A DNA stretch of 34,717 nucleotides from a virus, in IMG/VR virus record IMGVR_UViG_3300033148_005152, positions 1-34,717 of that record; one strand, given 5' to 3'. Positions 1-32,522 of the stretch are shown here, piece after piece. Position numbers and translations under genes: made by a program. The notes beneath the pieces were generated by a model. That model saw nothing but the letters and a program-made list of their open reading frames with translations. It was not told where the DNA came from and did no database searches. Positions within the stretch are counted from its first letter, which is position 1. Each line of letters begins with the position of its first letter.

Positions 1-359
1 ATATTATTATCTAAAGGATAATAAGCTACAAGAGAATCAGAACTTATATCCGATTTTAACGACATTACTGGTTCTCTACCTGCACCTATGTATGCTCTAT
101 CGAATATTGCAGTATCAATCTTTGTACTGTCATCAAGCATAGATATACCAAATGCATTGATTGAATCTACAAAAGCATCTAATTTTAGAAGTTTTCGCGC
201 GCTATCTGATAAAACATCTTTTATGCCATCATTAGTCCACATTCGCAGAATCGTCTGTTCAGAATACGTTGAATCCCAACAAACCACTTGAATATAAGTC
301 TGTCCAAATAAAGAAAAGGGTAATAATAAGATTAGTATTAAAAATAAAATTCTTTTCAT
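1..359 (-). CDS. Secreted tail or virion protein, 3' end missing
   Basis: The gene runs off the left edge; 119 residues are visible. It begins MKRILFLILILLLPFSLFGQ, a typical Sec signal peptide with cleavage likely before or at the Gln near residue 20. The visible part ends SLVAYYPLDNN, the usual opening of a LamG or concanavalin-like carbohydrate-binding domain, so the missing part probably holds that fold. The ATG lies 5 bases after the stop of the gene at 365-1369, and GAGG sits about 9 bases before it. Its place next to tail-fibre-like genes suggests a receptor-end or surface protein. A signal peptide on a virion protein is unusual. Function is inferred from position and from the short LamG-like start only. 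Confidence 0.75.
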   Translation of the reverse strand, partial: MKRILFLILILLLPFSLFGQTYIQVVCWDSTYSEQTILRMWTNDGIKDVLSDSARKLLKLDAFVDSINAFGISMLDDSTKIDTAIFDRAYIGAGREPVMSLKSDISSDSLVAYYPLDNN

Positions 360-1369: not shown

Positions 1370-1372
1370 TTA

Positions 1373-2845
1373 TCATCCCCAATCAAAAAACCCCCAATCA
1401 CCTTGTTGAGCATCGGGACCCCAAGTAGTAGTGCCTGATTCTATCAATCTAAATGTATGGTCTGTATCGTTTAATTCCATTTCCTCGCTATGAAACGTAT
1501 ATTTATCAATTAATTCATCACCTTTCTTTTCAGTCAATTTTGTATATCTAACAAGTTCAGCTATTACTTCTGAAGCCCATTTAGGTGCTTTTGCAAATTG
1601 TATTGTATAAAAAGCATACCCACCCCCAATCGTTTTCGTAGTTACAGAAGTAATCATATATGTATTATCAACCGAACTATCCCAATTTGGCGGGTCTAAA
1701 GTTAATAACTGTCCTGATTTATAACCTGTGTTATGTGTTTCAAAACTACCACTTATTCTTGGATAAGCATATTCATTTATTTCCGCAAGCCCTCTGTCTC
1801 TTGCTTCATCATTTGAACTGATAGAATTGTCTATTATTATGCCTTCATGTATTCCATCACCACCTTCTATACTTTTAGCATAAGCTTGAGCATCAGCATT
1901 TATTACTTGTGTTATAACCTTTATATTATATGAATATAAACAGAAAACACTATCAGGAACATCAGGAATAGCCTCACCTCCTGCTGTATTACAATAGACA
2001 GTCCTTGCATTATAATCAAGCAAATAAGCATAACTAACATCACCATCATCCTTATCCTTTACTCCAACAGTTTTTTCTGTTCCTGTATCCCAATCTACAC
2101 CTACTCTTATTTCTAAACTATGAGGAGAATAATTCAAAACCCATTCTTCAGTTGTTCCATCCCCAGCAAAAGATTCGGTAGTTGGAGAACTTAAATAATT
2201 TCCACCATGAACCATTACTTGATTTTTTACTTCCGAAAAATCCCAATTTATTTTTAGATTTCTAACTGCATCATTATTTTCATCTATTTTATAAGGAGCA
2301 ATATTTGTTTCTCTTGGAAAGAAATGTACATCTTTTTCGTAATCAACATACCATTCATACCCAGCTATTTTTGCCAGTCTTCTTATGCATTCTGAAATAG
2401 AAACATAATTAAAAACTATTGTATCAATAGTAGGACCTGTATCTACATTAGTTGTTGTAAATCCCCATGTGTTATCTATATAATTATTAAAAATATGATT
2501 TATAATAGTATTACAACTTGAATTTGTATAAGCTTCAGCTACCAATCTATATTCCAAAATCCTTTGATAATCAACACAATTAACATAATATTTAAATTTA
2601 CCAGGAGAAAATTGCACACCATCAACACTGTCTATTATCCCACCAAATAAAATTCTTGAAGTATTATCGTCATCCGTTTGTATTATTTCAACGACTTGTC
2701 CATTTTGAGGTCTATTAGTAGGGTCAACTAAAGTAAATGAACAGGTATTTACTTTATCTGTTACTACATCTTGGATTGAAATAGTACCTTTTTCAATCTT
2801 TTTTGTTACATCAATACTATTAATTGTGGTTTCAATAGATGGCAT
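1373..2845 (-). CDS. Tail hub or baseplate protein (gpD/late-control-like)
   Basis: 490 residues. The N-terminal 110 residues form a beta-rich domain (TTINSIDVTKKIEKGTISI, then VVEIIQTDDDNTSRILFGGI and YYVNCVDYQRILEYRLV) like those of siphovirus tail hub proteins related to late-control protein D and gp27. Residues 155-185 carry SISECIRRLAKIAGYEWYVD, a segment typical of the same family, followed by FFPRE. The C-terminal half is beta-rich and ends in LIESGTTTWGPDAQQGDWGFFDWG. It follows tape measure directly, the usual place for the distal tail and hub genes. No lysozyme or peptidase motif is visible. Confidence 0.75.
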   Translation of the reverse strand: MPSIETTINSIDVTKKIEKGTISIQDVVTDKVNTCSFTLVDPTNRPQNGQVVEIIQTDDDNTSRILFGGIIDSVDGVQFSPGKFKYYVNCVDYQRILEYRLVAEAYTNSSCNTIINHIFNNYIDNTWGFTTTNVDTGPTIDTIVFNYVSISECIRRLAKIAGYEWYVDYEKDVHFFPRETNIAPYKIDENNDAVRNLKINWDFSEVKNQVMVHGGNYLSSPTTESFAGDGTTEEWVLNYSPHSLEIRVGVDWDTGTEKTVGVKDKDDGDVSYAYLLDYNARTVYCNTAGGEAIPDVPDSVFCLYSYNIKVITQVINADAQAYAKSIEGGDGIHEGIIIDNSISSNDEARDRGLAEINEYAYPRISGSFETHNTGYKSGQLLTLDPPNWDSSVDNTYMITSVTTKTIGGGYAFYTIQFAKAPKWASEVIAELVRYTKLTEKKGDELIDKYTFHSEEMELNDTDHTFRLIESGTTTWGPDAQQGDWGFFDWG

Positions 2846-2854
2846 TATAATTAA

Positions 2855-5740: not shown

Positions 5741-6051
5741 TTATTTTTCCTTGTAAAATCAGCTTTTCTTTTCAAGTTTCTTAAATTCCTTATTTCTAAA
5801 ATATTTGGTTTTGCATTTGGGTCAAGGTAATAATCAATATCATTCGGATTTATACCTGCTTTTCGCATCTTTTCCATCATTCTAAAATCTGTTCTCTTTC
5901 CACTTTCCAAGCTTTCTTCTCCTTTTTTGACACTTTTAGCTTCTTCTTTTATTCCTATAAATGCACACAAGGAATCAATTTCAAAAGCTCTTACATCATC
6001 CTTTACTTCTAATATAACACTCGGCCTCGTTCCGTATCGCCTACCCACCAT
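5737..6051 (-). CDS. Tail assembly chaperone, downstream frame (gpT-like)
   Basis: 104 residues from its own ATG. The reading frame is open well upstream of that ATG, back through the end of the gene at 6074-6547, so the protein is more likely made as a fusion by frameshifting (see 6085-6108). It is charged and has DIDYYLDPNAKPNILEIRNLRN. Position between tail tube and tape measure, plus the overlapping open frames, is the hallmark of the lambda G/GT chaperone pair, which binds tape measure and recruits tube subunits. No SD-like sequence is obvious just before the internal ATG, which supports the fusion model. Confidence 0.75.
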   Translation of the reverse strand: MVGRRYGTRPSVILEVKDDVRAFEIDSLCAFIGIKEEAKSVKKGEESLESGKRTDFRMMEKMRKAGINPNDIDYYLDPNAKPNILEIRNLRNLKRKADFTRKNK

Positions 6052-6073
6052 ATCTAAAGCTAAAAGATGATTT

Positions 6074-6547
6074 TTATTTCGTGCGAAAGGGGGACATTTC
6101 TTGCCCCCGCCCCATAGTTAACTCCCAAATAGCAATCAAGTCAGGAAAATCAAAAAAGGAAGGGGGTACATATTCATCTTCCGTCAAGCCTTCTTTCAAA
6201 GCATCTTCATCAAACATAACTCTTGGTTGTATAATTGCTATTGTGGCAAATCTATAAAACAAACTCATCATAGACTTAAAATCAGAATCAGAAAAATTCT
6301 TCATTTTCGTAAAATCACCGCTTAAATCATCAACACTTTCCATCTTTGAAATAAGACTATACGTGAATATGTCCTTTTCTATTAAATCAAAAAGTTTTGG
6401 CGGTCGAACCAAAACTTTTATCTTGGAATTAGGTAATTCAAATATAAAATCCTTTTTTGCTTCCCTCATTTGTGAAGGGGTAACTACTTCATTTTCATTC
6501 TCTTCTACTATTTTCTTTTTAGTTTTTTTAACAACGTTTTCGTCCAT
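6074..6547 (-). CDS. Tail assembly chaperone, upstream frame (gpG-like)
   Basis: 157 residues; AAGGAG lies about 9 bases before the ATG. The protein is acidic after a lysine-rich start (KKTKKKIVEENENE), then DFIFELPNSKIKVLVRPPKLFDLIE, a region seen in siphovirus chaperones, where a short beta domain precedes helices. The C-terminus PSFFDFPDLIAIWELTMGRGQEM is reached just before two five-base homopolymer runs. It sits between the tail tube gene and tape measure, the standard place. It probably coats tape measure during assembly and is absent from the virion. Confidence 0.75.
   Translation of the reverse strand: MDENVVKKTKKKIVEENENEVVTPSQMREAKKDFIFELPNSKIKVLVRPPKLFDLIEKDIFTYSLISKMESVDDLSGDFTKMKNFSDSDFKSMMSLFYRFATIAIIQPRVMFDEDALKEGLTEDEYVPPSFFDFPDLIAIWELTMGRGQEMSPFRTK
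6085..6108 (-). promoter_or_regulatory. Probable programmed frameshift site (+1 or -2) between tail chaperone frames
   Basis: On the minus strand the upstream frame reads ATG GGG CGG GGG CAA GAA ATG TCC CCC TTT, then CGC ACG AAA TAA. The downstream gene lies in the +1 (equal to -2) frame, and that frame has no stop from here to 5740. Two sites could slip: GGGGG at 6104-6108, where a tRNA on GGG can move back two bases and pair again with GGG (as in the phage Mu -2 site), and CCCCCTTT at 6086-6093, where CCC allows either a -2 move or a +1 move to CCT. The two runs can pair as a 5-bp hairpin with a 10-base loop. The fusion would be about 269 residues. Confidence 0.7.
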
Positions 6548-6580
6548 CTTTTTGGCTCCTTAAATTTTAGTATTTAATTA

Positions 6581-7087
6581 TTATGTAGCTACGTCTGTGT
6601 CGCCAAAACAGAATAACTGATAACCAGCACTTTTTGAACTATCCCTATAGCCATGAAAAACAGCAGCAATAGTTTTTACGCTTTCCTTATTATAACCTAT
6701 TTCAAAAGTTTCTTGACATAAAGCTTTGAATATAGTTATTTTCTGATTATCATCCGTTTCCCAAGATGGCTCTAAAACAAGTTCAGCTAAATCACTCGTC
6801 GATATTGTGTCGCCACCAAAATCTAACCGTTCATCATCCCCACTTGTGGTTAATGTTCCTTGCGTGAAAACATAAGATAAATTAGTGGGTCCTGTTTCTG
6901 CAAGAGGAACGGTAGCGGTGCAAGCTTCACCCGTCAAGAAAGTTGTTTCTTTCATAGTGTACTGGTCGGCTGTAAAATCTACAAAAGTTGGAGTATATGT
7001 AAAAGTTACTCCTCCTGCTGACCTGCCTAAATCGTTACCATCATACGTAATGGAACAAGGCCCCAAATGTACATCAGTTAAAGCCAT
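6581..7087 (-). CDS. Major tail (tube) protein
   Basis: 168 residues, beta-rich, beginning MALTDVHLGPCSITYDGNDLG, then GGVTFTYTPTFVDFTADQYT. This order (short start, 'GP' and a strand, TADQ-like segment) matches tube proteins of many siphoviruses. Near the C-terminus comes ESVKTIAAVFHGYRD. It lies directly upstream of the chaperone pair and downstream of the tail terminator, the canonical location. It should polymerise as hexameric rings around the tape measure. Confidence 0.8.
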   Translation of the reverse strand: MALTDVHLGPCSITYDGNDLGRSAGGVTFTYTPTFVDFTADQYTMKETTFLTGEACTATVPLAETGPTNLSYVFTQGTLTTSGDDERLDFGGDTISTSDLAELVLEPSWETDDNQKITIFKALCQETFEIGYNKESVKTIAAVFHGYRDSSKSAGYQLFCFGDTDVAT

Positions 7088-7099
7088 TTTTTATCTCCT

Positions 7100-7540
7100 T
7101 TACCCTACATAGTTAGCGTCTTCCCTTACTTTTACGTGAAAAGAAAGGTATTGTATTGGTAGTTCAATATCTGGGTCTTTCTGCAAATACGGACCCGATA
7201 TTAGGGCAGAAGCAAAAACATAAGCTTCACCCATTTCCAGATTGTTTTTCCTGTGGAGCAAATCTCTTATCATCCAAGCCATAACTTTTGATATTTGCGA
7301 ATCATAAGACCTGCAAAAGATTTCTACTCTTGCATTATCTATTTCAAGATACGTCTCAATCCCAACATTGCCTTGCCTTCTTATTTTAACAGCATTCACT
7401 CCCCTTGCCAAATTCGGAGACCACCTATGCAAACAAAAAGTAGGTTTGGTTGTTAAATTGCTTTCACTCCAGGGTGTTGTCCAATTATCTTCTAAATAAG
7501 TTTTTAATTGTTCTTCTAAATAATTATTTAATGTAGTCAT
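7100..7540 (-). CDS. Tail terminator (completion) protein
   Basis: 146 residues: MTTLNNYLEEQLKTYLEDNW, then PTFCLHRW and a mixed alpha/beta middle with ARVEIFCRS, ending QYLSFHVKVREDANYVG. Size, fold pattern and the slot between the gp10-like gene and the tube gene fit the tail terminator that caps the tail and joins it to the head. Its ATG overlaps the previous stop at TAATG, so translation is probably coupled. Confidence 0.6.
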   Translation of the reverse strand: MTTLNNYLEEQLKTYLEDNWTTPWSESNLTTKPTFCLHRWSPNLARGVNAVKIRRQGNVGIETYLEIDNARVEIFCRSYDSQISKVMAWMIRDLLHRKNNLEMGEAYVFASALISGPYLQKDPDIELPIQYLSFHVKVREDANYVG

Positions 7541-7923
7541 TATTTATTTTCAACTGATTCAAATACATCTTTCTTTAATGCATTGGCTACTAAACTAATA
7601 ACATCTTTCGATTTTTCTTCAAGAGCAGGCCATAAAAAAGGTTGTGCATCCATCTTACTTGTTCCTAGTTCAACATAAGGAGCATAATAAGCGTTAACAC
7701 CCACAATTGTCAAGAAATTTGAAACTTTCTCTACAAAATGATTCCTTTGTAAATTACCTGTTTTTACTGGAACAATTTCCTGTGATTTTGTTTTAACTAT
7801 GTTCCCGCTCTCATAAAGAGCATCACCTAAAACTTCTGCTGTTTCTTTATCAATCCAATCCAATTTTCTCTTTATTGCTTCAAGACCTTCAATTGTCAAA
7901 TCTAAATATTTTTCGGTAACCAT
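7540..7923 (-). CDS. HK97 gp10-like head-tail or tail completion protein
   Basis: 127 residues with the gp10 family pattern: an N-terminal helix (GLEAIKRKLDWIDKETAEVL), then IVKTKSQEIVPVKTGNLQRNHF, then YYAPYVELGTSKMDAQPFLWPAL. The 'P.kTGnL...' and 'Y..yvElGt....aqPFl.PAl' motifs are the defining features. Members act at the head-tail joint of siphoviruses. The gene lies 2 bases after the decoration-like gene at 7926. Confidence 0.9.
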   Translation of the reverse strand: MVTEKYLDLTIEGLEAIKRKLDWIDKETAEVLGDALYESGNIVKTKSQEIVPVKTGNLQRNHFVEKVSNFLTIVGVNAYYAPYVELGTSKMDAQPFLWPALEEKSKDVISLVANALKKDVFESVENK

Positions 7924-7925
7924 AA

Positions 7926-9056
7926 TTAATCCAGCTTTCTGTAAGCAACTGCTATTGTTAATGAATCTATATCTTCTCCGGCACCCGTTTCTGTAAAACT
8001 TAATTTCAAAGTTTCACCGCTTGCCATATCGGCATTTTCAGCATGTAAATCACCCATATCTTCAAATATCCCTGCCGTCAACGCAAGCCCTGCTGCATAG
8101 GGTCCACTTATATATCTTTCAACAATTTTTGATGTGCCATTTTTAATAGAAACTAATACATAATTTGAATCGGAATCAGCAGCATACGTTTCTGTCGAAC
8201 CAATGTAAACTTTATCTATTACAATTCTTCCAGCAGTTATCATTAGACAAAAAACGTGGTCAGCATCATCGGATTTAGTATAATCCCCCAAGTTAAAAAC
8301 ATCTACAAAATATCTGTCCCTTGCTCTTGGTTGTGTCATTATCCCTTCAAGGTCAACACCAAATACTTCCGTTCCACCTTCCTTGAATGAAATATGGTCC
8401 CTAACTGTCTGGTCGCTTATTATAGTGCCGTCTGTTTTTGCCGGTTCGGCGAATTCAATAACTGGGTCGGACTGTGCATCTGTATTAGAATCTGTGCTTG
8501 TAGCTACTATATTATATTCTATTCTTACTGTGAATCCTGAAAGAGCCATGCCATTTCCAGATTTAGCAAACTTAATATAAACAGTTTCATTAGGTAATAT
8601 TGTGGAATAATCTGTATCAATAGTCCCACTTGCACGCCAAGTGTTAAGAGTAAAACCAGCAGAAGCCGTTGTAATAGCTGCCGCTACTGTTCTTTCCGTA
8701 GCACCTGCTCCGGCCTTTTTGCAAATGGAAATAGACTGATAATCAGTGGTATCCAACGCTACGGATGTGTCTGTAGCAAAATCTGCTGTCTTTATTGTTA
8801 CAGGAACAGGCGCTCTGAAAATAGGAAATAAATTCCCATCTTCATTTGCCGCTATATCTCCAAGACAAACGTGGATTGTTCTTGTTTTCCATCCTGAATT
8901 TGAAACGATTTCTCCGTGTTTATTTATTCTACAAACTTCTGTACCGCTCTTTGTCATTCTTATAAAATCGCGACCTTTATTATCATCTATTTCGATAACA
9001 GGTCCCGTTGATTCTTTTAAATCATCAAATAATAGGCACTGATCCCCGGCTGCCAT
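7926..9056 (-). CDS. Decoration-like virion protein with internal duplication
   Basis: 376 residues with AGGAGG before the ATG. Two homologous halves are visible. The first opens PVIEIDDN (residue 19) and has GTEVCRINKHGEI (38-50) and ETVYIKFAKSGNGMALSGFTV (157-176). The second opens PVIEFAEP (198) and has GTEVFGVDLEGIM (228-240) and ETLKLSFTETG near the end. The 'GTEV....D..G' opening is common in phage surface proteins that precede a beta-sandwich. The protein at 9202-9726 is a third copy. It sits between stopper and gp10-like genes, so a capsid-decoration or neck role is possible; function is not shown. Confidence 0.7.
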   Translation of the reverse strand: MAAGDQCLLFDDLKESTGPVIEIDDNKGRDFIRMTKSGTEVCRINKHGEIVSNSGWKTRTIHVCLGDIAANEDGNLFPIFRAPVPVTIKTADFATDTSVALDTTDYQSISICKKAGAGATERTVAAAITTASAGFTLNTWRASGTIDTDYSTILPNETVYIKFAKSGNGMALSGFTVRIEYNIVATSTDSNTDAQSDPVIEFAEPAKTDGTIISDQTVRDHISFKEGGTEVFGVDLEGIMTQPRARDRYFVDVFNLGDYTKSDDADHVFCLMITAGRIVIDKVYIGSTETYAADSDSNYVLVSIKNGTSKIVERYISGPYAAGLALTAGIFEDMGDLHAENADMASGETLKLSFTETGAGEDIDSLTIAVAYRKLD

Positions 9057-9201
9057 ACTTAACCTCCTATATTATTTAAATTTATTTTCAAAACTGTTTT
9101 TTCCTCATTCTATAGTTAAATTGCTTTTTTAATTAAAATTCTTTTTCATTCTTTTAGTATTGTCTTTCCTTCTTTCTATTAAAACCCAATTTATTTTAAT
9201 A

Positions 9202-9726
9202 TCAGGCTTCACAAGTAAACACAAGATGCAATGTGAATCCCTCAAGAGCCATTCCGCTACTTGCTTTTGTAAATGTACAGTAAACTTTCTCATCAGCAGC
9301 CAAAACCTTATGCGTCCCATCTAAAGAACCGCAATCATTAGCTACCCCACCAGTAAGACCTGCTGCTGTAGTCGGAGGCGAGCTGAATATGGCGTTATCA
9401 TCTTTATCATATAAATTAATTGTTTGATAATTAACGGCATCTGCTCCAACATCATCAGCTACACTATAATAAACTTTATATAAAGTAACCGCTTCTAATT
9501 TTTGAAAAATAGGTATTTTCAAAGAATCTGAATCAGCGGCCACGTCTCCTACACAAACATTTTGATAATGATATTGCTGATTATTTGTCTGGTCAGGTAA
9601 TCCATTACAATCTATACTGAAAGTTTCCGTGCTATCTTTTTTACAAACTAAAAAGTCATTGTCAGATTGGTCAAGAATTATAATAGCACCTTTACCCTCT
9701 GGGTTTTTAATTTTTAATGCTGGCAT
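9202..9726 (-). CDS. Decoration-like virion protein, single-domain paralogue
   Basis: 174 residues, AGGAG before the ATG. It aligns by eye with the first half of the protein at 7926-9056: STETFSIDCNGL matches GTEVCRINKHGEI, VCVGDVAADSDSLKIPIFQK matches VCLGDIAANEDGNLFPIFRA, and EKVYCTFTKASSGMALEGFT matches ETVYIKFAKSGNGMALSGFT. So the three copies arose by duplication in place. A 145-base stretch without a gene (9057-9201) separates the two; it is T-rich on the plus strand and shows no other signal. Confidence 0.75.
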   Translation of the reverse strand: MPALKIKNPEGKGAIIILDQSDNDFLVCKKDSTETFSIDCNGLPDQTNNQQYHYQNVCVGDVAADSDSLKIPIFQKLEAVTLYKVYYSVADDVGADAVNYQTINLYDKDDNAIFSSPPTTAAGLTGGVANDCGSLDGTHKVLAADEKVYCTFTKASSGMALEGFTLHLVFTCEA

Positions 9727-9742
9727 TTCTATTACTCCTATT

Positions 9743-9931
9743 TTATATTATTTCAATGTCTTTCCTTATTTTCTTTTTTGATTTATTCTTTTTCAGCTTT
9801 TCTATTCTAACTTTCTTTTCAAGTTCGATATTCGGTTTAAGCCAGGGATAATATTTTTTCAAATTTTCAATTTCTTTTTCTGAAATTTTATCATCTACTA
9901 TATCTTTTATCATTTTTATTCTTCCACCCAT
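9743..9931 (-). CDS. Small basic protein of unknown function
   Basis: 62 residues, almost half Lys, Arg, Glu or Asp, ending KLKKNKSKKKIRKDIEII, with a KYYPWLKPN centre. AAGGAG followed by TAATTAATTATG gives a clear start. YYPWLKPN resembles the minimal 'YPWL+P' segment of small phage head or neck proteins, but this is not enough for a name. It lies between the stopper and the decoration genes. Confidence 0.6.
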   Translation of the reverse strand: MGGRIKMIKDIVDDKISEKEIENLKKYYPWLKPNIELEKKVRIEKLKKNKSKKKIRKDIEII

Positions 9932-9944
9932 AATTAATTACTCC

Positions 9945-10289
9945 TTATATAGTCAACGCTTCTTCTAAAGATTCCCTAACATCCACATGATAACTTAAAG
10001 TTTTTCCAAACTGATTTTTACTTCTCTTTAAATAAATTATTTGATATGTTTTTCCATCATAAACAATCCTGTCTTCTGAATCAATAGAAGCTTTATTTTC
10101 TATTATAAAAGAACCATCCATCAATTCATCTTTACCTGTAATTCCCACTGTCAATCTTTCTCTTTTTGAAAGAAAAAAACACCTTGCTTCCTGTGAAGTT
10201 TTATAACTAACATTTCCATAATCATCATAAGTAACCCCTGAACGTATATAACAAACTTCACGTAGTATTTTATCTATTGGTATTCGCAT
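9945..10289 (-). CDS. Head-tail stopper / head closure protein
   Basis: 114 residues. The pattern 'CYIRSGVTYDDYGNVSYKTSQEARCFFLS', then DSEDRIVYDGKTYQIIYLKR and a final strand HVDVRESLEE matches the SPP1 gp16 / HK97 gp7-type closure family, small beta-barrels that plug the connector and dock the tail. It starts in a TAATG overlap with the connector gene, as in many relatives. Confidence 0.7.
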   Translation of the reverse strand: MRIPIDKILREVCYIRSGVTYDDYGNVSYKTSQEARCFFLSKRERLTVGITGKDELMDGSFIIENKASIDSEDRIVYDGKTYQIIYLKRSKNQFGKTLSYHVDVRESLEEALTI

Positions 10290-11485
10290 TATATTATCAT
10301 TTCCGTAGGTTCAGTCTTTGCATACCAACCCAATTGTTGATATAATTCAGGAGGCAAACCATTTTTAAAATCTGCTGCTGAATATTCATAATCACCATCA
10401 CTAATATTTTCCTTTTTGAATGCTCTATCCAATCTACTCAAACCATATTTGTAAGCAACCATTTCACAACATATCTGTTTTAACGGTTCTGGTATCGTTT
10501 CGTACCCGCCAGTATAAGAAACTGTTATATTCATTACTCTATTAGTTACATTTAAAATAGCACTTGTTGATAAATCCAAAATTCCTTCATCATAAAGCAC
10601 ATCAAAATCAGATAAAGGATTACTGGGCAAATACAACGTTATAGTTGTTTCTTTAGCATTCAAACCAGAAACTTTAAATAAATAAGAACAAGGATAATCA
10701 GCATAATCATTATCCATCAGTTCAGCTGTCCAACCCAAATCACTGTCCAAAGCATTTATGGCATCGACCATTTCTGTTATAGTATCGTCATCTTCAAAAG
10801 TCAAATCTTCATCGCTACCATTTGAATCCCCACCAAATATTTTCAAATTTATCTTGGCAGTTGTTACTTCAATAGGACAGAAAGCCGTATCTGTCAAAGT
10901 ATTTTTTATTGTCATCACTCCTGTCCTACCTGTGCTTACCTTTACATCAGAAACTATTGGATAATTATTTAACATTATTAATCCACTATCAGTTACACTG
11001 TGTCTTTCGTTTATAAATGAACGGCTTTTCAGTTTCCTTCTACATTCATTTTCAATTCCTATAGAAGCATTGTTTATAAGCATTTCTAAAAGAAAATTAT
11101 CATAACAATATAAAATCAATTTATTCGTTTCACCTAAACAACTTGTAGCTTCTTTTATAATTAAATCGGTTGAAGAAACATTTGACCTTCCTTCAAGATT
11201 AACGACCCAACCCTTATCCCAAGTGTCATTTATATAATCAACAAGTTCTGTCAAAGTATCATAATCATCAGCAGTCAAATCTATTGTCTTATCTCCATTA
11301 TTAGCTCCTGAAGAAGTTACACTTAATATCATTGCTTCATCTTTGACTTGGACAGTAGCTGCTGTCGTTACCCCATCAGAATTAGAATTGTAAATTGAAA
11401 TCCCAGAAGTTTGAACGTTCTCCCTTTCTTGCAAATAATTTTTACATTCTTCTAATGAGATTAATGCGTATTCTGAAAGACTCAT
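10289..11485 (-). CDS. Head-tail connector (gp6/gp15-like) with two inserted domains
   Basis: 398 residues, about twice or more the usual size. The connector core is recognisable in pieces: residues 1-23 (LISLEECKNYLQE), 128-190 (LLEMLINNASIGIENECRRK, then GLIMLNNYPIVSDVKV), and 300-398 (VSYTGGYETIPEPLKQICCE, then a helical end). Two extra domains interrupt it at 41-127 and 200-287. They resemble each other: YDTLTELVDYINDTWDKGWVVNL against DDTITEMVDAINALDSDLGWTAEL, each after 'idLt' or 'edltF' and before a 'ss..L' strand. The inserts look like the short FliD-type 'hook-IN' motif. The start has only weak SD (ATGGA). Confidence 0.8.
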   Translation of the reverse strand: MSLSEYALISLEECKNYLQERENVQTSGISIYNSNSDGVTTAATVQVKDEAMILSVTSSGANNGDKTIDLTADDYDTLTELVDYINDTWDKGWVVNLEGRSNVSSTDLIIKEATSCLGETNKLILYCYDNFLLEMLINNASIGIENECRRKLKSRSFINERHSVTDSGLIMLNNYPIVSDVKVSTGRTGVMTIKNTLTDTAFCPIEVTTAKINLKIFGGDSNGSDEDLTFEDDDTITEMVDAINALDSDLGWTAELMDNDYADYPCSYLFKVSGLNAKETTITLYLPSNPLSDFDVLYDEGILDLSTSAILNVTNRVMNITVSYTGGYETIPEPLKQICCEMVAYKYGLSRLDRAFKKENISDGDYEYSAADFKNGLPPELYQQLGWYAKTEPTEMII

Positions 11486-11582
11486 TTTAATCCATTTTTA
11501 GTTATAAGAATAATTTTATTTTTTAAATTTTCAAAATAATATTAAACTTACCATTAATCACCATTTTATCTTATCATAAAAA

Positions 11583-12398
11583 TTAATCATTTCTTTCTAT
11601 CCACCCAATAAGAGAAGCCGTTACATCCGACGCTGCTGTTGTTTCAACAGCAAGATATACATCCGTTCTTTCACTTATTACTATGGGAAAGATAAACTCA
11701 TTTCCTGATGTTGTATATTGTATTTTCTTTACCCATATAGAACGGTCAGTTTTATTATAAGGAATAATGTGTATGCCAAAACTTGCTATTACTGCCTGTG
11801 CAATTGAACATTCAAAATAAGCTAAATATAAAGTATAATTGTCTGGAACGGTATAAAATGCGTGATATGTCTGCCCATCATAAGCGTTAATCATACCAAC
11901 GGTTGTATCTGCACCAAGATTTGTTATACGCAAATTGCCTTTTAATGTATCAGCTCCAGAAGAATCCACCCAAGCCCTGTTCAATCTCAAAAATTCCTTT
12001 GCACTCTTCACTCTATTTGTACCATCCAAATCAAGTGTATCCCTTATTACATTATAATCAGCATCCAACCCTTCAAAAATTACTGTTCTTCCTCCAGTAC
12101 CACCTTTATCGTCAGCCGCATTATTGGAACAAACCATCAAAGATTCAGCAGCCGCCAAAGGATTATAAGTACCTGAACTATCCCAGATAACTTGATGTGC
12201 TGCCCCGGTTGAATTGCAAACCCCTATAATATTAACCGCTTCTGCTCTTTTAATTATACCTTTGGCTATATTAAGATAATACGTTTGGGCAGATACTCTC
12301 AAATCACCATCCTCAAATTCTACTCTACTGTTCCACTGGGCGAATAACGTAGTGGGAAAGAATATAAATAAAATTAAATAGTATAATAATTTTTTCAT
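11583..12398 (-). CDS. Secreted protein in the structural module, unknown function
   Basis: 271 residues starting MKKLLYYLILFIFFPTTLFA, followed by QWNSR: a Sec signal peptide with an AQ end. The mature part is beta-rich (VEFEDGDLRVSAQTYYLNIAKG, GGRTVIFEGLDADYNVIRDT, TTVGMINAYDGQTYHAFYTV, then TTAASDVTASLIGWIERND). The middle looks like bacterial or phage surface proteins with repeated strands; no enzyme motif is visible. The ATG lies 4 bases after the stop of the gene at 12403, so the two are cotranscribed. There is no clear SD, so translation may rely on coupling. Confidence 0.65.
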   Translation of the reverse strand: MKKLLYYLILFIFFPTTLFAQWNSRVEFEDGDLRVSAQTYYLNIAKGIIKRAEAVNIIGVCNSTGAAHQVIWDSSGTYNPLAAAESLMVCSNNAADDKGGTGGRTVIFEGLDADYNVIRDTLDLDGTNRVKSAKEFLRLNRAWVDSSGADTLKGNLRITNLGADTTVGMINAYDGQTYHAFYTVPDNYTLYLAYFECSIAQAVIASFGIHIIPYNKTDRSIWVKKIQYTTSGNEFIFPIVISERTDVYLAVETTAASDVTASLIGWIERND

Positions 12399-12402
12399 TT
12401 TT

Positions 12403-12897
12403 TTATCTCACATTGACTTCCAATGTATAGGGGATAGTTCTCCCCTTATTTACGTTTAATGAATCTGTATTTCTTACTAAAAACAACATATGCTCTGCCG
12501 CTTCAGGATTAATTTTAAAATGATTATATAAATTATAATGCTTAACACTATCTTCAAGATTAATAGCAACTGCTCCAGAAGAATCTGGATGTGGAACTAA
12601 CAAAGTATCCCAAAAAGCATACCCCCATTGTAAATTTATTCTGGGTAATTTTCCTTCAGTGTAAGCGTTTCCCGATGTATCATATTTAAATTTTACTTCA
12701 ACTACCCCAGTAAAAGATTGATTAGCTAAATTGATTCTTAAAGTATCAATATCGAGTTTATTCGTTCCACCGGCATCGACGCTATCAGGAGCAAGTAAAG
12801 TGCCTTGCATTGAAAATTTCACCATTCTTTGTGAATAAATATCTGAAAACCAAAGGACAAAAAATGATATTAATATAAATATAAATAATTTTTTCAT
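12403..12897 (-). CDS. Secreted protein in the structural module, unknown function
   Basis: 164 residues from the ATG at 12897, chosen because AGGTG lies just before it and because it begins MKKLFIFILISFFVLWFSDIY, a clean signal peptide ending SQ. An upstream in-frame start would add 15 residues before the hydrophobic core and is less likely. The mature part is beta-rich with DTLRINLANQSFTGVVEVKF and ends NKGRTIPYTLEVNVR, suggesting a beta-sandwich. It has no recognised relative. Confidence 0.65.
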   Translation of the reverse strand: MKKLFIFILISFFVLWFSDIYSQRMVKFSMQGTLLAPDSVDAGGTNKLDIDTLRINLANQSFTGVVEVKFKYDTSGNAYTEGKLPRINLQWGYAFWDTLLVPHPDSSGAVAINLEDSVKHYNLYNHFKINPEAAEHMLFLVRNTDSLNVNKGRTIPYTLEVNVR

Positions 12898-12915
12898 TGG
12901 ACACCTAAAAAGATT

Positions 12916-12946
12916 TTCCCTGCGGACTATAAAAGCCCGCAAGGAA
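12916..12946 (-). terminator. Hairpin between genes 12954 and 12403
   Basis: A ten-base arm (12916-12925, TTCCCTGCGG) pairs with 12937-12946 (CCGCAAGGAA), one mismatch, 11-base loop. On the minus strand it is followed by AAAATCTTTTT, so it may act as a weak terminator or RNA-stabilising hairpin. Confidence 0.45.
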
Positions 12947-12953
12947 TAATTAA

Positions 12954-13160
12954 TTATTCTTCTTCATTCAACTTAACTTTTTCTTTCTTCTTTTTCAACT
13001 TCACCTTCACTGCCAAACCTTCTGATAATATAGAAGGCACGTCTTCAGCTCTTGCATTAAAAACGCTACCTGGTTCTAACAACATACTCTTTCCGTTAAC
13101 ATTATACCTCAAAAATCTACCCGGCAACATTTTCATTCTAAAAACATTTTTAATAGCCAT
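12954..13160 (-). CDS. Small phage structural-region protein, unknown
   Basis: 68 residues, GGAGG-type SD before the ATG. It begins MAIKNVFRMKMLPGRFLRYN and has LEPGSVFNARAEDVPSIL, then a Lys/Glu-rich tail (KLKKKKEKVKLNEEE). The 'G.f..y.vng...l.pG.....' style occurs in small head proteins, but the match is weak. It sits between two secreted proteins yet has no signal peptide. Confidence 0.6.
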   Translation of the reverse strand: MAIKNVFRMKMLPGRFLRYNVNGKSMLLEPGSVFNARAEDVPSILSEGLAVKVKLKKKKEKVKLNEEE

Positions 13161-13185
13161 AGGACTCCTCCGTAAGTTTAATTAA

Positions 13186-14205
13186 TTATTTTTCAGCCAC
13201 TATTCTATACCAATCTTCAAGTAAATACTGTCCGGCTGTAGTTCCTTCTCCCTTTTTTAATTCTCGGAAGGGCGTTAATTTTCCACCGATTGGTAAATTA
13301 GAAGTACCTGCAATACTGTCTATCAATACACCATTAGCGTACCACCAAACGGCGCAATCGGTACCTTCACCGTCAAAATGAAATCCTAATGTATTCCAGC
13401 CAAGATTCCCAGAAGCAGGTAATAAAATTAACGAATCAGTCAATTCAGTTGTCGCATCTTCAACTACCCCCCTCCAAACTGAATCACCATCTACTATTCT
13501 AAAATAAATACCATCTTCTGTGCCAGCAATAACAGTACTATCAGCTACAGCTAAACCAAAAGCAGCCTCTAATTGATAAGCTGTATGTGTCCCCAAAGCA
13601 ACTCTCCATTCACACCAAATTTCTTTTGTGCTGTCCATAACAATAGATGTGTTGTTTATATGAGAATTGTTAAGACCATCATCTTGGCTTGTTGTAAGTA
13701 TTTTTAAAACCCCACCAGCACTATCTGGTAGCGTATATCCATTTTTACCTGTATCGGAAGAACAATACCATCCAGCTATTGATGAATCCCCGGGTCCTGC
13801 GGATATATCAGCACAAATCCAATCTTCAAATAACTCAAATACTTCTGATGCATTATGCCAACCTATATTAGTTTTAATTTTATTATTCCACATACCTGTA
13901 TTAGGACTTTCAATAACATTGGTACCATCAAAGTATAATTCATAATCATCGTCAGTTCCTAAAAGTATTCCATAATTATCAGCAAAGTTATAATTGGCAG
14001 ACGCATCAGCTATAACTGTTCCTGATTGTATGTCAACAGTAGCGCCGGAATTTAATTGTATTTCACCACCATCTTTAACCACCATTCTATCACCGCCCGT
14101 GTCAAAATAAATCTTTGTTATGTAATCAGATTGAGCAAATACAATTCCAACTACAATCAAAGAAGCGGAAAGCAAAGTGGTTATTAATTTCCAATTCTTT
14201 TTCAT
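13186..14205 (-). CDS. Secreted protein with jelly-roll or lectin-like C-terminus
   Basis: 339 residues, AGGAGGT before the ATG. It starts MKKNWKLITTLLSASLIVVG, then IVFAQSDYITK: a signal peptide with AQ end. After it comes FDTGGDRMVVKDGGEIQLNS, a repetitive beta segment (GATVDIQSGTVIAD), then YELYFDGTNVI, as in phage appendage or decoration proteins. The last 150 residues look like a concanavalin-like sandwich (WCEWRVALGTHTAYQLEAAF, NTLGFHFDGEGTDCAVWWYA, NGVLIDSIAG, YLLEDWYRIV). Carbohydrate binding on a surface is the best guess. Confidence 0.65.
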   Translation of the reverse strand: MKKNWKLITTLLSASLIVVGIVFAQSDYITKIYFDTGGDRMVVKDGGEIQLNSGATVDIQSGTVIADASANYNFADNYGILLGTDDDYELYFDGTNVIESPNTGMWNNKIKTNIGWHNASEVFELFEDWICADISAGPGDSSIAGWYCSSDTGKNGYTLPDSAGGVLKILTTSQDDGLNNSHINNTSIVMDSTKEIWCEWRVALGTHTAYQLEAAFGLAVADSTVIAGTEDGIYFRIVDGDSVWRGVVEDATTELTDSLILLPASGNLGWNTLGFHFDGEGTDCAVWWYANGVLIDSIAGTSNLPIGGKLTPFRELKKGEGTTAGQYLLEDWYRIVAEK

Positions 14206-14246
14206 TATTTAATACCTCCTAAAATTTTATAGTATATAATGAAGAA

Positions 14247-14272
14247 GGCGGGGCAGGAGCCCAAACCCCGCC
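14247..14272 (-). terminator. GC-rich hairpin terminator after the capsid operon
   Basis: GGCGGGG at 14247-14253 pairs perfectly with CCCCGCC at 14266-14272, 12-base loop. Reading leftwards it is followed by TTCTTCATTATATACT. This is by far the most GC-rich spot nearby and sits between the decoration-like gene and the secreted gene at 13186, so it probably reduces transcription into the secreted genes. Confidence 0.6.
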
Positions 14273-14284
14273 ATCTCCCTTCAA

Positions 14285-14301
14285 CGTCCTTCTTCAGGAC
14301 G
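14285..14301 (-). terminator. Second hairpin adjacent to the terminator
   Basis: CGTCCT at 14285-14290 pairs with AGGACG at 14296-14301 around a 5-base loop. It lies 12 bases before the larger hairpin in the direction of transcription. It could cooperate with it or protect the 3' end of the capsid messenger. Confidence 0.45.
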
Positions 14302-14307
14302 AGTCTA

Positions 14308-14712
14308 TTATTCACTTGCATCACTTGAATAATCACTCGTTGCTGGTGAATAAATTGGGTCTTTCCCTATTAATATAACACACACATAAGAATCATTGCT
14401 TGAACCTGTTTCAGTTACATCAACCCTAACGTATCTTTTTATATCGTCAAGTTCAACTTTCGTTAGTCCTGACTCATCAAGTAATGTAGCTGTTACCGTT
14501 GTGTGTGTTGCAAAAGTGCTATCGTCTTCACTATCCAAGATAGTGCAAGAATCAAACGTATCGCTTCCAAGAGTGAACGAAATTATAGCATATGCATCTC
14601 TGCACCCATACATATCAACAGACGTGCCTGTAGATAGACCATTTAATAAATTGGCTCTTATTCCTTCCTTCACCAACATACTAGCGCCAAAATCTCTGGT
14701 TACTGCTCTCAT
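14308..14712 (-). CDS. Probable head decoration protein
   Basis: 134 residues, beta-rich: MRAVTRDFGASMLVKEGIRA, then GTSVDMYGCRDAYAIISFTL, STFATHTTVTATLLDESGLTKVELDD, KRYVRVDVTET. The RYVRVDVT segment with 'D.Y.ai...' strands is a pattern of small beta-sandwich phage head proteins found just downstream of the capsid gene. No transmembrane or signal segment. A decoration or minor head role is inferred from position and size. Confidence 0.6.
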   Translation of the reverse strand: MRAVTRDFGASMLVKEGIRANLLNGLSTGTSVDMYGCRDAYAIISFTLGSDTFDSCTILDSEDDSTFATHTTVTATLLDESGLTKVELDDIKRYVRVDVTETGSSNDSYVCVILIGKDPIYSPATSDYSSDASE

Positions 14713-14750
14713 AATTTTTTACTCCTATATTTTTGTTTCATTATTTTTCC

Positions 14751-14772
14751 TGTTTCAACAATTGTTGAAACA
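14751..14772. repeat. Perfect 22-base palindrome after the capsid gene
   Basis: TGTTTCAACAA is followed at once by its exact reverse complement. It lies 8 bases after the capsid stop. Without a following U-run it is more likely an RNA-stabilising hairpin or a binding site than a terminator. Confidence 0.7.
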
Positions 14773-14779
14773 AATATTA

Positions 14780-15976
14780 TTACGATGCCGCTACTCCTTT
14801 AATAATATAGAAATTCTTTGGTTCTCTGGGAGCGCCATCAGAACGCATAACCGCTCTGAAGTAAGTTTCGTTTCGTAAGAAACTATCACCAGCAACATCA
14901 GAAGCACTGATTTCAATTAATTCAGTTTTTTTCTGAAGAATAGCAAAATCACTCCATTTTCCAAGAATTATATAAGAAAGACTTGTTCCAGTACCAGCCG
15001 TTAGATTTGTTACAATTTGGGTAGTAAAACCAACTTTATATCCCAAAATATCATCAGGTTCTTTCTTTGTCAAATCTCTTGCTAACTGCTGTCCCAGATG
15101 ATAAATATATGAACCTTCTCCATTCTTCAATTGTCGCAAACTATTCTTTGTTCTCGGATGCATTATCCAACCATCACAAGTAGCATCATTAGCTTGTATA
15201 GCGTATTCAGCGTCCATCAGGTCATCAAAAGTAGGCACAGCCCCATTACCCGAACCAAGCGTAGTGCTTGATACAAGAGGGTTGTTGTAAATACCCAAAG
15301 GTTGTGTTCCACCTGTACCTTTTATGAACGCTAAATCTTCAGCAAGCGCAAGAACTTTTGCCAAATCGTCTTTTATAATCGTGTCCACCGCCGGTCCCGC
15401 ATCCGCCAATAAATCATTTTTGACTTTTGTAACTCCCACACAATCTTTTAATACTAAATTGAGCATGGCAAATGCCTGGTCGGAAGCGGTAAAATCAGTT
15501 GTTCTTGCATCCTGTACCCAATAAGCGGTTGCTCCCCCCGTTGTTCTCGGTATTGACATAGTGTTTCCATTCACTTCATAAACGGTAGCACCCATATCTC
15601 TTATGATAGCTTTCGCCCGAAGCAATTCAATGACTTCTGTTGAAACTTCTGGAGGAATAAGAAACCCACCTTTAACACCAAGACCACCACGCATTGTTTT
15701 TATCACTTCTTCTTTATCCGAATTTATTCTTATAAAAGCTTGCTTTTCATAATCAGCATCTTCCCAGTTACCAGTAGTCGAACCACGCAAATACTTTGCT
15801 ATTGAAAGGTACTGCTTTCCACCGGTGACAGGGGTTTCAATCCTATCGTTTTCTGTTGATCTTTCCCGTGCTTTCGTCAAAGGCTCAAGACTTTTCTTGA
15901 TTTGCTCCTTGACAATTTTTTGCATTTCATCAAGGTCAATAGTTACTTTTTTCGTTTCTTTCTTTTTATCAGCCAT
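14780..15976 (-). CDS. Major capsid protein, HK97 fold
   Basis: 398 residues from the ATG at 15976, chosen over a GTG nine bases upstream because GGGGTG precedes it. The first 60 or so residues are a charged helix (MQKIVKEQIKKSLEPLTKAR), a delta domain that is probably cut off. The fold-defining parts follow: GGLGVKGGFLIPPEVSTEVIELLRAK, IIRDMGATVYEVNGNTMSIPR, DLAKVLALAEDLAFIKGTGG, QPLGIYNNP, a P-domain and the final GSFL-like DSFLRNETYFRAVMR. It is the shell protein and the substrate of the protease at 17037. Confidence 0.95.
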   Translation of the reverse strand: MADKKKETKKVTIDLDEMQKIVKEQIKKSLEPLTKARERSTENDRIETPVTGGKQYLSIAKYLRGSTTGNWEDADYEKQAFIRINSDKEEVIKTMRGGLGVKGGFLIPPEVSTEVIELLRAKAIIRDMGATVYEVNGNTMSIPRTTGGATAYWVQDARTTDFTASDQAFAMLNLVLKDCVGVTKVKNDLLADAGPAVDTIIKDDLAKVLALAEDLAFIKGTGGTQPLGIYNNPLVSSTTLGSGNGAVPTFDDLMDAEYAIQANDATCDGWIMHPRTKNSLRQLKNGEGSYIYHLGQQLARDLTKKEPDDILGYKVGFTTQIVTNLTAGTGTSLSYIILGKWSDFAILQKKTELIEISASDVAGDSFLRNETYFRAVMRSDGAPREPKNFYIIKGVAAS

Positions 15977-16011
15977 TATACACACCCCACTAAATTTTAT
16001 ATGTTAATAAC

Positions 16012-18586: not shown

Positions 18587-19972
18587 TTATGTTTTCTTTT
18601 TTCCTTTAGGCGGTGCTTGAAATTTAGGCTTGCCTGTAGGTTTTGTCAATGTATCCTTATCATAAACAGGTGTCCAATAGCACATACAATTGTGGACTAA
18701 AAATCCTTTTGCCACATAGCTTTCATCTTCTTCAACTGAAAGATTATACAAATCAATTTCTTCTTCTATTTTATATCTTTTTATTGCTTTTATTTCATAA
18801 ACTTTGAATCCATTATTAAAAGATAAACAAGATAACTCGCCCTTTAACTCTGCCTTATCAGCTTCTTGCCATTTACCGTTCAGCATTATTTTATGATTAG
18901 CAGAAAGAGTCAATTCGTAATTAAATTTTTTATCTATAAATAAACTAACCATACTGGTATTTACATTTTTATATTTGTGTAATTGTATTACTTTTCTAAA
19001 TCTACTTTTATGCGTATAAACTAAATCATTTACTTTTACATCTTCTATCTTCTTCCAACCTTTAATTGTATAAACAATAACTCCTGATTGGAAGCAATGA
19101 GGGTGTAAAGGTATTACCCCCCTTGCACTTTCCAAAGTATATTCCTGCATATTTAAAGCTTGGCAAATAGGGCAGGGTCGAACAGAATTTCTTAATTGAA
19201 CTCTTTTAACTTTATTTGCTTTGTAACTTTGCAAAGTCCCTTCAGCATAAGCTCTTGCTGTTTCCGTTCTTGCTATCATTTCAGTTCTATATCTATGCAA
19301 CTTATTTGTATATCTATCTATCATTTGTTCATATTTTTTTCCGCTGATTCCTTCACTTATTAATTTATTTCCATAATTATCAACGGCTTTCCACTGTCTC
19401 GAATGCAACCCTACTCTCCCTTTGATTTCCCTGCCGAGTTGCGCGATGTCTTTTCCTTCTTTAATTCCTCTTGAGATATAAGTCCGCAAAGTTGATTTAG
19501 TATCATCAAGAATTTCCGTAACCAAATTAGCACAGCTTTTTTCAGCAAATTTAACCGCAGGGGTGTTCACAACTTCAAAACTCATTTTCAAATTACCAAA
19601 TTGTATCATCTTATTTCCAGACCTTTGCATAAATCTTATTTCAGCTGGTAAAATTTCTTGCATACCCATTATTTTAATACATTCCCACCCCGCCAATTCA
19701 GCTACAATTTTTCCAGCACTTGCTTTTTCTAATTCTATAAATTTCTTATACGATTTTTTCTTGATTAATCTATTCAATCCATAAATTAAGGTTTCCCTCA
19801 TTTCATTATACCAACCTGCAACTACTCTTTCAAATTCATCTACATCGGATTGTATCAGTCTTCTTAAAGTTTTTGCTTCTCTTTCAGCAATGCCTGATTT
19901 TTCAATAAACATCTGAACAGAATCATTAATGTTTAATTTGACATTTTCTATTTGTTCAACAATCGCTTCCAT
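18587..19972 (-). CDS. Minor head protein, MuF / SPP1 gp7 family, with a mini-intein
   Basis: 461 residues from the ATG at 19972, chosen because GGAG lies 4 bases before it; an earlier in-frame start would overlap the previous gene. The N-terminal 220 residues are helical. The MuF domain shows HRYRTEMIARTETARAYAEG, then RPCPICQALN and PLHPHC.., ending CYWTPV. Between His and Cys of HPHCMC a 136-residue intein is inserted (18689-19096). Spliced, the host protein would be about 325 residues. MuF proteins enter the head at the portal and are packaged in small numbers. The C-terminus is Lys/Pro-rich (QAPPKGKKKT). Confidence 0.85.
   Translation of the reverse strand: MEAIVEQIENVKLNINDSVQMFIEKSGIAEREAKTLRRLIQSDVDEFERVVAGWYNEMRETLIYGLNRLIKKKSYKKFIELEKASAGKIVAELAGWECIKIMGMQEILPAEIRFMQRSGNKMIQFGNLKMSFEVVNTPAVKFAEKSCANLVTEILDDTKSTLRTYISRGIKEGKDIAQLGREIKGRVGLHSRQWKAVDNYGNKLISEGISGKKYEQMIDRYTNKLHRYRTEMIARTETARAYAEGTLQSYKANKVKRVQLRNSVRPCPICQALNMQEYTLESARGVIPLHPHCFQSGVIVYTIKGWKKIEDVKVNDLVYTHKSRFRKVIQLHKYKNVNTSMVSLFIDKKFNYELTLSANHKIMLNGKWQEADKAELKGELSCLSFNNGFKVYEIKAIKRYKIEEEIDLYNLSVEEDESYVAKGFLVHNCMCYWTPVYDKDTLTKPTGKPKFQAPPKGKKKT
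18689..19096 (-). mobile_element. Mini-intein in the minor head protein
   Basis: Residues 293-428 of the gene product. Starts CFQSGVIVYTIKGWKKIEDV (block A with Cys1, then KVNDLVYTHK), has YELTLSANHKIML (block B with the His), and ends LYNLSVEEDESYVAKGFLVHN before Cys+1 (blocks F and G with His-Asn). All residues for standard class 1 splicing are present. There is no LAGLIDADG or HNH block, so it is a mini-intein that cannot move by itself. Removing it restores HPHCMCYW. Confidence 0.88.
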
Positions 19973-19973
19973 G

Positions 19974-20249
19974 TTACTCCGTTTCCAGAATAGCAAATTT
20001 TTTGTAACTTCTCAAATGCCTTTCCAATCTATTTACTAATTCTAAAACTCTTTTTGGCAATTCTTCTTTTGGTATATAATCTAATTCATCAGCCAAACCC
20101 CTTGCAAAGAAAGTATATCCGTTTTCCACAAAGAATTTAGAATGAAGCTGATTATATTTTTTTAGCCAGTTGAATAAAGATTTAATGTCTATTATTTTGT
20201 CAGCTACTTTTTGTTTTTTCCCGTCTATATTTTTTAATGTGAAAAGCAT
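19974..20249 (-). CDS. Small protein of unknown function in the head module
   Basis: 91 residues: MLFTLKNIDGKKQKVADKII, FNWLKKYNQLHSKFFVENGY, FFARGLADELDYIPKEELP, then a basic helix. No family recognised. It begins in TAATTAATTATG directly after the 40-residue gene and ends so that its final GAGTAA is part of the SD for the MuF gene. So it is very probably translated with its neighbours. Confidence 0.65.
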   Translation of the reverse strand: MLFTLKNIDGKKQKVADKIIDIKSLFNWLKKYNQLHSKFFVENGYTFFARGLADELDYIPKEELPKRVLELVNRLERHLRSYKKFAILETE

Positions 20250-25998: not shown

Positions 25999-26021
25999 TT
26001 AATTACAAAAGGAATCCAATT

Positions 26022-26426: not shown

Positions 26427-26434
26427 TCAATTTT

Positions 26435-26761: not shown

Positions 26762-26821
26762 AAGAGAAAGGATAATAAAAAAATTAATAAACAAATTAAG
26801 AAAATATAATAGGAAGGAAAG

Positions 26822-27172: not shown

Positions 27173-27191
27173 ATTATTTGGAGAAAGTAAA

Positions 27192-27584: not shown

Positions 27585-27705
27585 AAAATGCTAAAACAGT
27601 AAATCAATTGCATAAAGACGAAGAACCTCTTTTTTATATTTTTTTGTAAAAAATTTAACGTCGTTTTTCACATCAGAAAACTTTAATTTTTCCTGGATTT
27701 TTTAC

Positions 27706-30057: not shown

Positions 30058-30555
30058 TTAAAAACGATATGTAAAATTAACTAATGTCTTATTTTTGCCG
30101 AATGACAAATCAACATTGTATTTCTTCTTAAGATTTTCATTTATTTTTTTAGCTGAACTATAAGCGTCTGTTGAACTATAAACTATGTCAGTCAGAAGAA
30201 CAATTGCTCCAATTGTGGCTATTGTGTTATTAGGTTCTGTTCTTATTCTTTTGAGATAGGGCGGCCATCCATCGTCGTAGCTATATATTACTTTGTCTTC
30301 TGGTTCTTCATAAGTAGCCATCATACCTGCTGATATTATGCCTGTAAGTAAAAATAATGTACCTTTCCCGACTTCACCGTTATAAAACTGACCGCTTCCT
30401 ACAATTAATAAAGACAATAGAGCTGCTACTCCTTGATTCTTTTTCTCCATTTGATATTTCATAAGGTTTTTCATTTCATTGTCTATTTCCTGTGAAATAG
30501 ACAAATTTGGTGTTAATATTAACAAGACTATCAAAATCATTATTGATTTTTTCAT
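30058..30555 (-). CDS. Secreted or membrane protein with TM2-like hydrophobic hairpin
   Basis: 165 residues from the ATG at 30555, chosen because AAAGGA precedes it and it opens MKKSIMILIVLLILTPNLSI, a signal peptide ending SQ. A hydrophobic pair follows: GVAALLSLLIVGSGQFYNGE, VGKGTLFLLTGIISAGMM, with GQFYNGE..KG, the turn seen in TM2 / DUF5683-like envelope proteins of the FCB group. A third hydrophobic stretch (TIATIGAIVLLTDIVYS) and a C-terminal beta strand FTYRF follow. Likely inserted in the host envelope and perhaps borrowed from the host. It could modify the host surface or block superinfection; that is speculation. Confidence 0.65.
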   Translation of the reverse strand: MKKSIMILIVLLILTPNLSISQEIDNEMKNLMKYQMEKKNQGVAALLSLLIVGSGQFYNGEVGKGTLFLLTGIISAGMMATYEEPEDKVIYSYDDGWPPYLKRIRTEPNNTIATIGAIVLLTDIVYSSTDAYSSAKKINENLKKKYNVDLSFGKNKTLVNFTYRF

Positions 30556-30574
30556 AATTAAGTCCTTTCTAAAA

Positions 30575-32091: not shown

Positions 32092-32122
32092 TTTCTCCTT
32101 TAATCATTTTAATTTATCACTA
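32092..32122 (-). repeat. Gene-junction repeat, copy 1
   Basis: 31 bases identical to 32523-32553. Reading leftwards it supplies GATAAATTAAAATGATTAAA and GGAGAAA, that is, the end of the upstream gene plus the SD of the next. A 21-base part recurs at 30952-30972. Such shared borders promote recombination between gene modules. Confidence 0.7.
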
Positions 32123-32522
32123 TTTTTATCCAATGGTAATCATTACCCACACGGCTACCGTAAATGTAATTATGACAACCAATATTTAATTTCTCCCATT
32201 CTTCCGGGGGATATATTTTTACTGTTTTTCCTTTTACCCATACAAGAGTATCATTATCAACAAACGTCTCAATTGAATCGTAATCATGGAAATATATTTT
32301 ATTTTTATATTTATATATATCACCTAAAAATACATATTCTCTAAAAGCCACAAACTCATTAGGATTATACCAAAGGGTATCCTGCCCTTCTTCTAATCTC
32401 ATATTACCACACATAATTGTTGTTGTATCCTGCCCTTTCGATTCCTTAATGGCAAGCATAATTATCATTATAATTATTGACAATATAGCAAATATAACAA
32501 ATATTAACTTATCTCTTTTCAT
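32109..32522 (-). CDS. Single-TM membrane protein, unknown
   Basis: 137 residues, AAAGGAG before the ATG. MKRDKLIFVIFAILSIIIMI, then IMLAIKESKGQ: an N-terminal membrane helix or uncleaved signal anchor. The rest is beta-rich with tyrosines and acidic residues (TTTIMCGNMRLEEGQDTLWY, NKIYFHDYDSIETFVDNDTL, GNDYHWIKIVIN). Its first 30 residues are duplicated in the gene at 33342-33485. Confidence 0.6.
   Translation of the reverse strand: MKRDKLIFVIFAILSIIIMIIMLAIKESKGQDTTTIMCGNMRLEEGQDTLWYNPNEFVAFREYVFLGDIYKYKNKIYFHDYDSIETFVDNDTLVWVKGKTVKIYPPEEWEKLNIGCHNYIYGSRVGNDYHWIKIVIN

Follow-up and report, generated by a model that had tools for sequence, protein, structure and literature searches.

The window is the whole stretch of 34,717 nucleotides analysed here, positions 1-34,717 of IMG/VR virus record IMGVR_UViG_3300033148_005152, from an uncultured tailed virus. 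A second contig, G001 (IMGVR_UViG_3300033141_003356), is 99.8% identical to the window across 22 kb and runs beyond its left edge, where it supplies complete fibre genes. The minus strand of the window holds a standard siphovirus-type late operon, in which several gene names were assigned by eye from translations. Terminase, portal, MuF, an XkdF-type protease, a scaffold-like gene and the HK97 capsid gene are followed by the gene at 14308-14712, a cluster of genes with signal peptides, the head-tail adaptor and the tail tube region, and the operon ends with the tape measure, baseplate and fibre genes. The three signal-peptide genes (11583, 12403 and 13186) are contiguous on the same strand between the capsid and adaptor genes, with gaps of 4-102 bases. 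The features considered below, with predicted cleavage sites marked by an arrow, are:

3..359, minus strand: LamG/ConA-like tail-end protein with a signal peptide (LFG↓Q), N-terminal 119 aa (Laminin_G_3, E=4e-27)
10289..11485, minus strand: head-tail adaptor with inserted repeats (phrog_442 connector, E=2e-13)
11583..12398, minus strand: signal peptide (residues 1-20, LFA↓Q) and all-beta phage domain, phrog_8198, 271 aa (PHROG, AF2)
12403..12897, minus strand: signal peptide (residues 1-22, IYS↓Q) and 142-aa mature part (corrected start)
12954..13160, minus strand: basic 68-aa protein without a signal peptide, between signal-peptide genes (ORF)
13186..14205, minus strand: signal peptide (residues 1-24, VFA↓Q) and 315-aa mature part (ORF, signal-peptide rule)
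14308..14712, minus strand: 134-aa protein adjoining the capsid gene, phrog_5707, without a signal peptide (PHROG)
14780..15985, minus strand: HK97-type major capsid protein (Pfam Phage_capsid, E=1e-54)
30058..30555, minus strand (gene also given as 30058-30606): signal peptide (SIS↓Q) and TM2-like membrane protein, encoded away from the structural module (signal-peptide rule, domain search)
32109..32522, minus strand: long hydrophobic N-terminus ending SKG↓Q, a signal peptide or membrane anchor (signal-peptide rule)

Elsewhere in the window, positions 26000-28900, between the terminase and the early genes, have 25-28% GC, divergent transcription and opposite skew; this AT-rich region is probably a regulatory switch. 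Four genes of the phage have intein-like interruptions. In a Pfam search the terminase (22577-25102) showed LAGLIDADG/homing-endonuclease domains, and splicing domains appeared in MuF (18587-19996, under the curated cut-off) and in an NlpC/P60-like lysis-region protein of G001 (L017:4921-6468), while the interruption in the G001 helicase (L016:9741-12398) was judged by eye only. Capsid-protein alignments were too divergent to yield sister phages, and polymerase and portal similarity gave no informative host assignment.

The four minus-strand genes 11583, 12403, 13186 and 3-359 open with clear n-, h- and c-regions: lysine-rich residues come first, then a hydrophobic core, then a small-x-small site. 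The predicted cleavages are MKKLLYYLILFIFFPTTLFA↓QW in 11583-12398, MKKLFIFILISFFVLWFSDIYS↓QR in 12403-12897 from its corrected start, MKKNWKLITTLLSASLIVVGIVFA↓QS in 13186-14205 and MKRILFLILILLLPFSLFG↓QT in 3-359, which is cut by the window edge. The original prediction of cleavable Sec signals on these genes held when signal peptides were called with a home-made rule, the same for the window and the control loci: all four were positive, with the positive n-region, hydrophobic core and small-x-small site of Sec/signal peptidase I substrates. By that home-made rule, signal-peptide-like starts are found in 3/8 head-module genes here versus 13/834 control ORFs of at least 100 aa from about 90 phage loci (Fisher p ~3e-4), and those 13 are mostly holin/spanin-type proteins or spurious frames. 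For 12403 the signal peptide stood and the gene start did not: the called TTG at 12942 gives way to an internal ATG at 12895-12897, which has AGGTG upstream and is most likely the real start.

Gln occupies position +1 after the preferred cleavage site in 8/8 signal peptides of this phage, although Gln accounts for 2.1% of the residues counted in window proteins. Under the Bacteroidetes Q-rule, signal peptidase I substrates expose Gln, which is then cyclised to pyroglutamate (PMC5837995). Q-values are above 48% in over 99% of Bacteroidetes species, and Q-type signal peptides also occur in some other groups, such as Ignavibacterium with 77% (PMC5837995). The phage peptides resemble these substrates in having Gln directly after the predicted cleavage site, but the rule was described for cellular proteins, with phages unmentioned (PMC5837995), and here it appears in phage proteins. 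Because Gln is at +1 in every case, the signal peptides look really processed. A Q-rule match would be unexpected from a random hydrophobic start; it implies real periplasmic cleavage and indicates the host group, which is probably a Bacteroidota-type or other high-Q bacterium.

No type IX secretion C-terminal sorting domain was found by Pfam or NCBIfam in any signal-peptide protein tested, and the Cys at +1 of a lipoprotein (signal peptidase II) is absent from 11583, 12403, 13186 and 3-359, all of which have Gln there. This indicates plain export by Sec and signal peptidase I, after which escape from the periplasm would require lysis. Disulfide-driven export was considered and dropped, as the mature proteins have 3, 0 and 4 Cys, not above their neighbours without signal peptides.

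Comparison with G001 suggests that these genes are maintained by selection. Genes 11583, 12954 and 13186 together show 12 synonymous and 0 non-synonymous differences (12954, 6 and 0; 13186, 5 and 0), a pattern that we read as purifying selection. The tail-end gene 3-359 has 8 amino-acid changes between the contigs, none of them within the signal peptide. Positions 13002-13339 hold 13/26 of the differences to G001 found over positions 420-15119, those in genes being synonymous; this cluster suggests a small recombination tract.

The protein encoded at 11583 belongs to a known phage family. It matches phrog_8198 over most of its length (E=3.2e-28, profile 39-241 of 262), and has relatives among cyanophages, in a Vibrio phage, among spring-water phages and on more than 500 IMG/VR contigs. 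When eleven members were aligned, 0/10 of the others had a signal peptide and most started near the domain start. Checking every possible start in 86 further relatives gave one with a signal peptide (L021). About 94 members in phage contigs begin directly at the domain without a signal peptide, a number that does not count independent lineages, as relatives were sampled in order of their similarity to the window protein and include a few near-duplicates. The 11583 protein shares the same domain (residues 38-270) with cyanophages S-SKS1 and S-SCSM1, Vibrio phage 104E43.1 and many IMG/VR phages, but departs from the usual family state in having a 20-residue signal peptide and a linker ahead of it.

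As at 11583, some phages encode the family between their capsid and connector genes. Vibrio phage 104E43.1 has its homologue, which lacks a signal peptide, between capsid and head-closure genes; the homologue is downstream of the capsid gene in L013, L086, L093, L103 and L085, and that of S-SCSM1 is annotated 'virion protein'. Since the relatives lack signal peptides and several of them neighbour capsid or head-closure genes, this lineage has added a signal peptide to a protein of virion type. This gain on a known virion family and the head-module location of the signal-peptide genes are, as read from the genomes, the surprising parts of the locus. The suggestion of a secreted arm within the structural module is thus partly sustained: signal peptides do lie inside a structural operon, and an extracytoplasmic phase is probable, but 11583, as a phrog_8198 member, is not a foreign secreted protein.

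Structure prediction, proposed for the mature parts, gave a confident model for 11583 (AF2 with 48 sequences, pLDDT 89.8). Residues 37-271 form a folded all-beta body and residues 1-29 a loose, detached N-terminal helix. In a fold search, PDB matches were weak (TM 0.15-0.25) and the viral matches were uncharacterised phage proteins.

Two phrog_8198 copies lie in less typical surroundings. At L021:9860-10735, in a gammaproteobacterial MAG, a chromosomal copy with a signal peptide adjoins multihaem/cytochrome genes, and is possibly a phage structural protein domesticated for export. At L096:5941-9926, an IMG/VR contig, a homologue is followed by a signal-peptide protein (LLAQ) and then a CHASE2-cyclase gene; this locus may be the edge of a provirus or a further copy outside phages.

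The neighbouring proteins are more obscure. The 12403 protein had no phage match and no family, and IMG/VR returned only its own phage. A family search with the 12954 protein gave nothing convincing. Residues 27-63 of the 13186 protein match a short phage repeat-like motif (phrog_12102, E=3e-5), its IMG/VR relatives were from the same phage only, and its single-sequence AF2 model (pLDDT 33) was too poor for use. Neither 13186 nor 12403 has relatives linking it to virions.

At the tail end, gene 3-359 is full length in G001, where it encodes a 394-aa LamG fibre protein. It is followed there by a 142-aa gene without a signal peptide and then by a 704-aa fibre gene with one, and G001 also has a 146-aa gene with a signal peptide. 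An IMG/VR search for relatives of the fibre genes returned the same phage only. In another part of the window, 32109-32522 and 33342-33560 have near-identical leaders, MKRDKLIFVIFA(I/V)L(S/A)IIIMII(M/I)LAIKES(K/R)GQ, ahead of unrelated short tails; from the sequences, the shared leader appears to be a duplicated leader cassette.

The original prediction had also stated that virion proteins normally carry no signal peptides, yet isolated phages offer a precedent for them. We scanned nine isolated Bacteroidota phages for signal peptides on structural genes. Cellulophaga phi10:1 (gp091-095) and phi19:1 (gp101-104) have them on 4-5 consecutive tail-end genes, nearly all with Gln at +1. All but one of these nine genes (8/9; the exception is phi10:1 gp095) carry the GenBank note 'experimental MS/MS proteomics', which records adhesins with signal peptides in virions, with the caveat that MS of virion preparations can include co-purified envelope material. 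Every other MS-listed structural protein of the two phages is without a signal peptide. In related Cellulophaga phages the signal peptide and the first 40-120 residues make up a conserved N-terminal cassette, behind which the C-terminal modules are exchanged, so that, by analogy, the cassette behaves like an N-terminal virion-attachment part. P12024L, FCL-2, B124-14, phi12:1, 11b, phi18:1 and phi38:1 had no such signal peptide on clear structural genes; with seven of the nine lacking it, this is a lineage trait and not a general one. A literature search, with subscription journals mostly outside its coverage, gave no account of signal peptides on tailed-phage virion proteins. What the window shows belongs to a pattern that has drawn little notice and does not amount to an entirely new system.

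There are several possible ways to account for the signal peptides. The proteins of this locus may each be an envelope coat, a surface lectin or a decoration acquired outside, the three roles first proposed for them. If they were exported and never entered the particle, they would cover the host surface or work outside the cell, in receptor masking, superinfection exclusion or polysaccharide binding perhaps, and their place in the structural operon would reflect late timing. This may apply to 13186 and 12403, phage genes without structural relatives, and the clean signal peptides, the Q-rule and the LamG lectin fold of the tail-end gene all fit it. The 11583 family, which sits in structural clusters and has no signal peptides elsewhere, and the adhesins listed in phi10:1 and phi19:1 virions speak against it, and we consider it unlikely as the general explanation, although it is a serious alternative. 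It is less probable still that the N-termini are membrane-targeting segments, retained as anchors or bypassed, with assembly in the cytoplasm and the leader either kept or removed by a phage protease. Beta proteins that fold quickly can evade Sec, and 32109-32522 has a long, anchor-like h-region, but Gln at +1 in all the signal peptides would have no reason to persist without signal peptidase I cleavage, and the signal peptide of 3-359 stays constant while the mature part changes.

Host-derived cargo is harder to reconcile with the locus. Were 11583, 12403 and 13186 morons in the head module, unrelated to the particle, the lack of phage relatives of 13186 and 12403 beyond one weak motif would be explained, as would the copy with a signal peptide beside cytochrome genes in L021. 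However, phrog_8198 is overwhelmingly a phage family, with the capsid or connector gene as its neighbour in several phages, and the three genes are closely packed on one strand, which makes this very improbable. Chance hydrophobic starts or an annotation artefact we regard as barely credible: the calls do come from one home-made rule, but the enrichment over control ORFs, the invariant Gln, the ribosome-binding sites and the conservation between contigs would all have to be coincidental.

The explanation we prefer, with somewhat more confidence than doubt, is that beta-rich particle proteins are exported through Sec, cleaved, and join particles outside the cytoplasm at or after lysis. A phage on a Bacteroidota-type host would export its fibre adhesins and three head-module proteins, signal peptidase I would cleave before Gln, and host glutaminyl cyclase would make pyroglutamate. 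The mature proteins would stay in the periplasm or the envelope until lysis opens it and then bind capsids or tails that had assembled in the cytoplasm, or alternatively coat the envelope. The particle would thus be completed outside the cytoplasm. For this phage, export is an inference with good support from the genome, its timing is a proposal, and 11583, 12403 and 13186 encode putative virion proteins. More tentatively, and short of what we would call probable, the capsid itself and not just the tail fibres may be completed outside the cytoplasm, with Sec-exported pyroglutamate head decorations joining heads released by lysis and a formerly cytoplasmic virion protein rerouted in this lineage.

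Assembly of tailed phages is taught as wholly cytoplasmic. The selected export signals seen here and the phi10:1 and phi19:1 isolates make periplasmic addition of adhesins or head decorations by some phages directly testable. If it occurs, receptor-binding proteins of Bacteroidota phages need different prediction and expression, and pyroglutamate N-termini would mark both host type and extracytoplasmic maturation.

Known systems resemble this locus in different respects. The coat proteins pIII and pVIII of filamentous phages are virion proteins with Sec/YidC-dependent signal peptides that are added at the membrane, but these phages are of an unrelated type and are extruded through the envelope, while the window phage is tailed and of lytic type. 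The adhesins of phi10:1 and phi19:1 are closer: like the window genes they are consecutive structural genes with Q-rule signal peptides, and they encode beta-rich adhesins or lyases at the tail end, as does the window's own tail-end gene. Their proteins show no sequence similarity to those of the window, and their signal peptides are confined to distal tail genes, whereas in the window they also occur in the head module.
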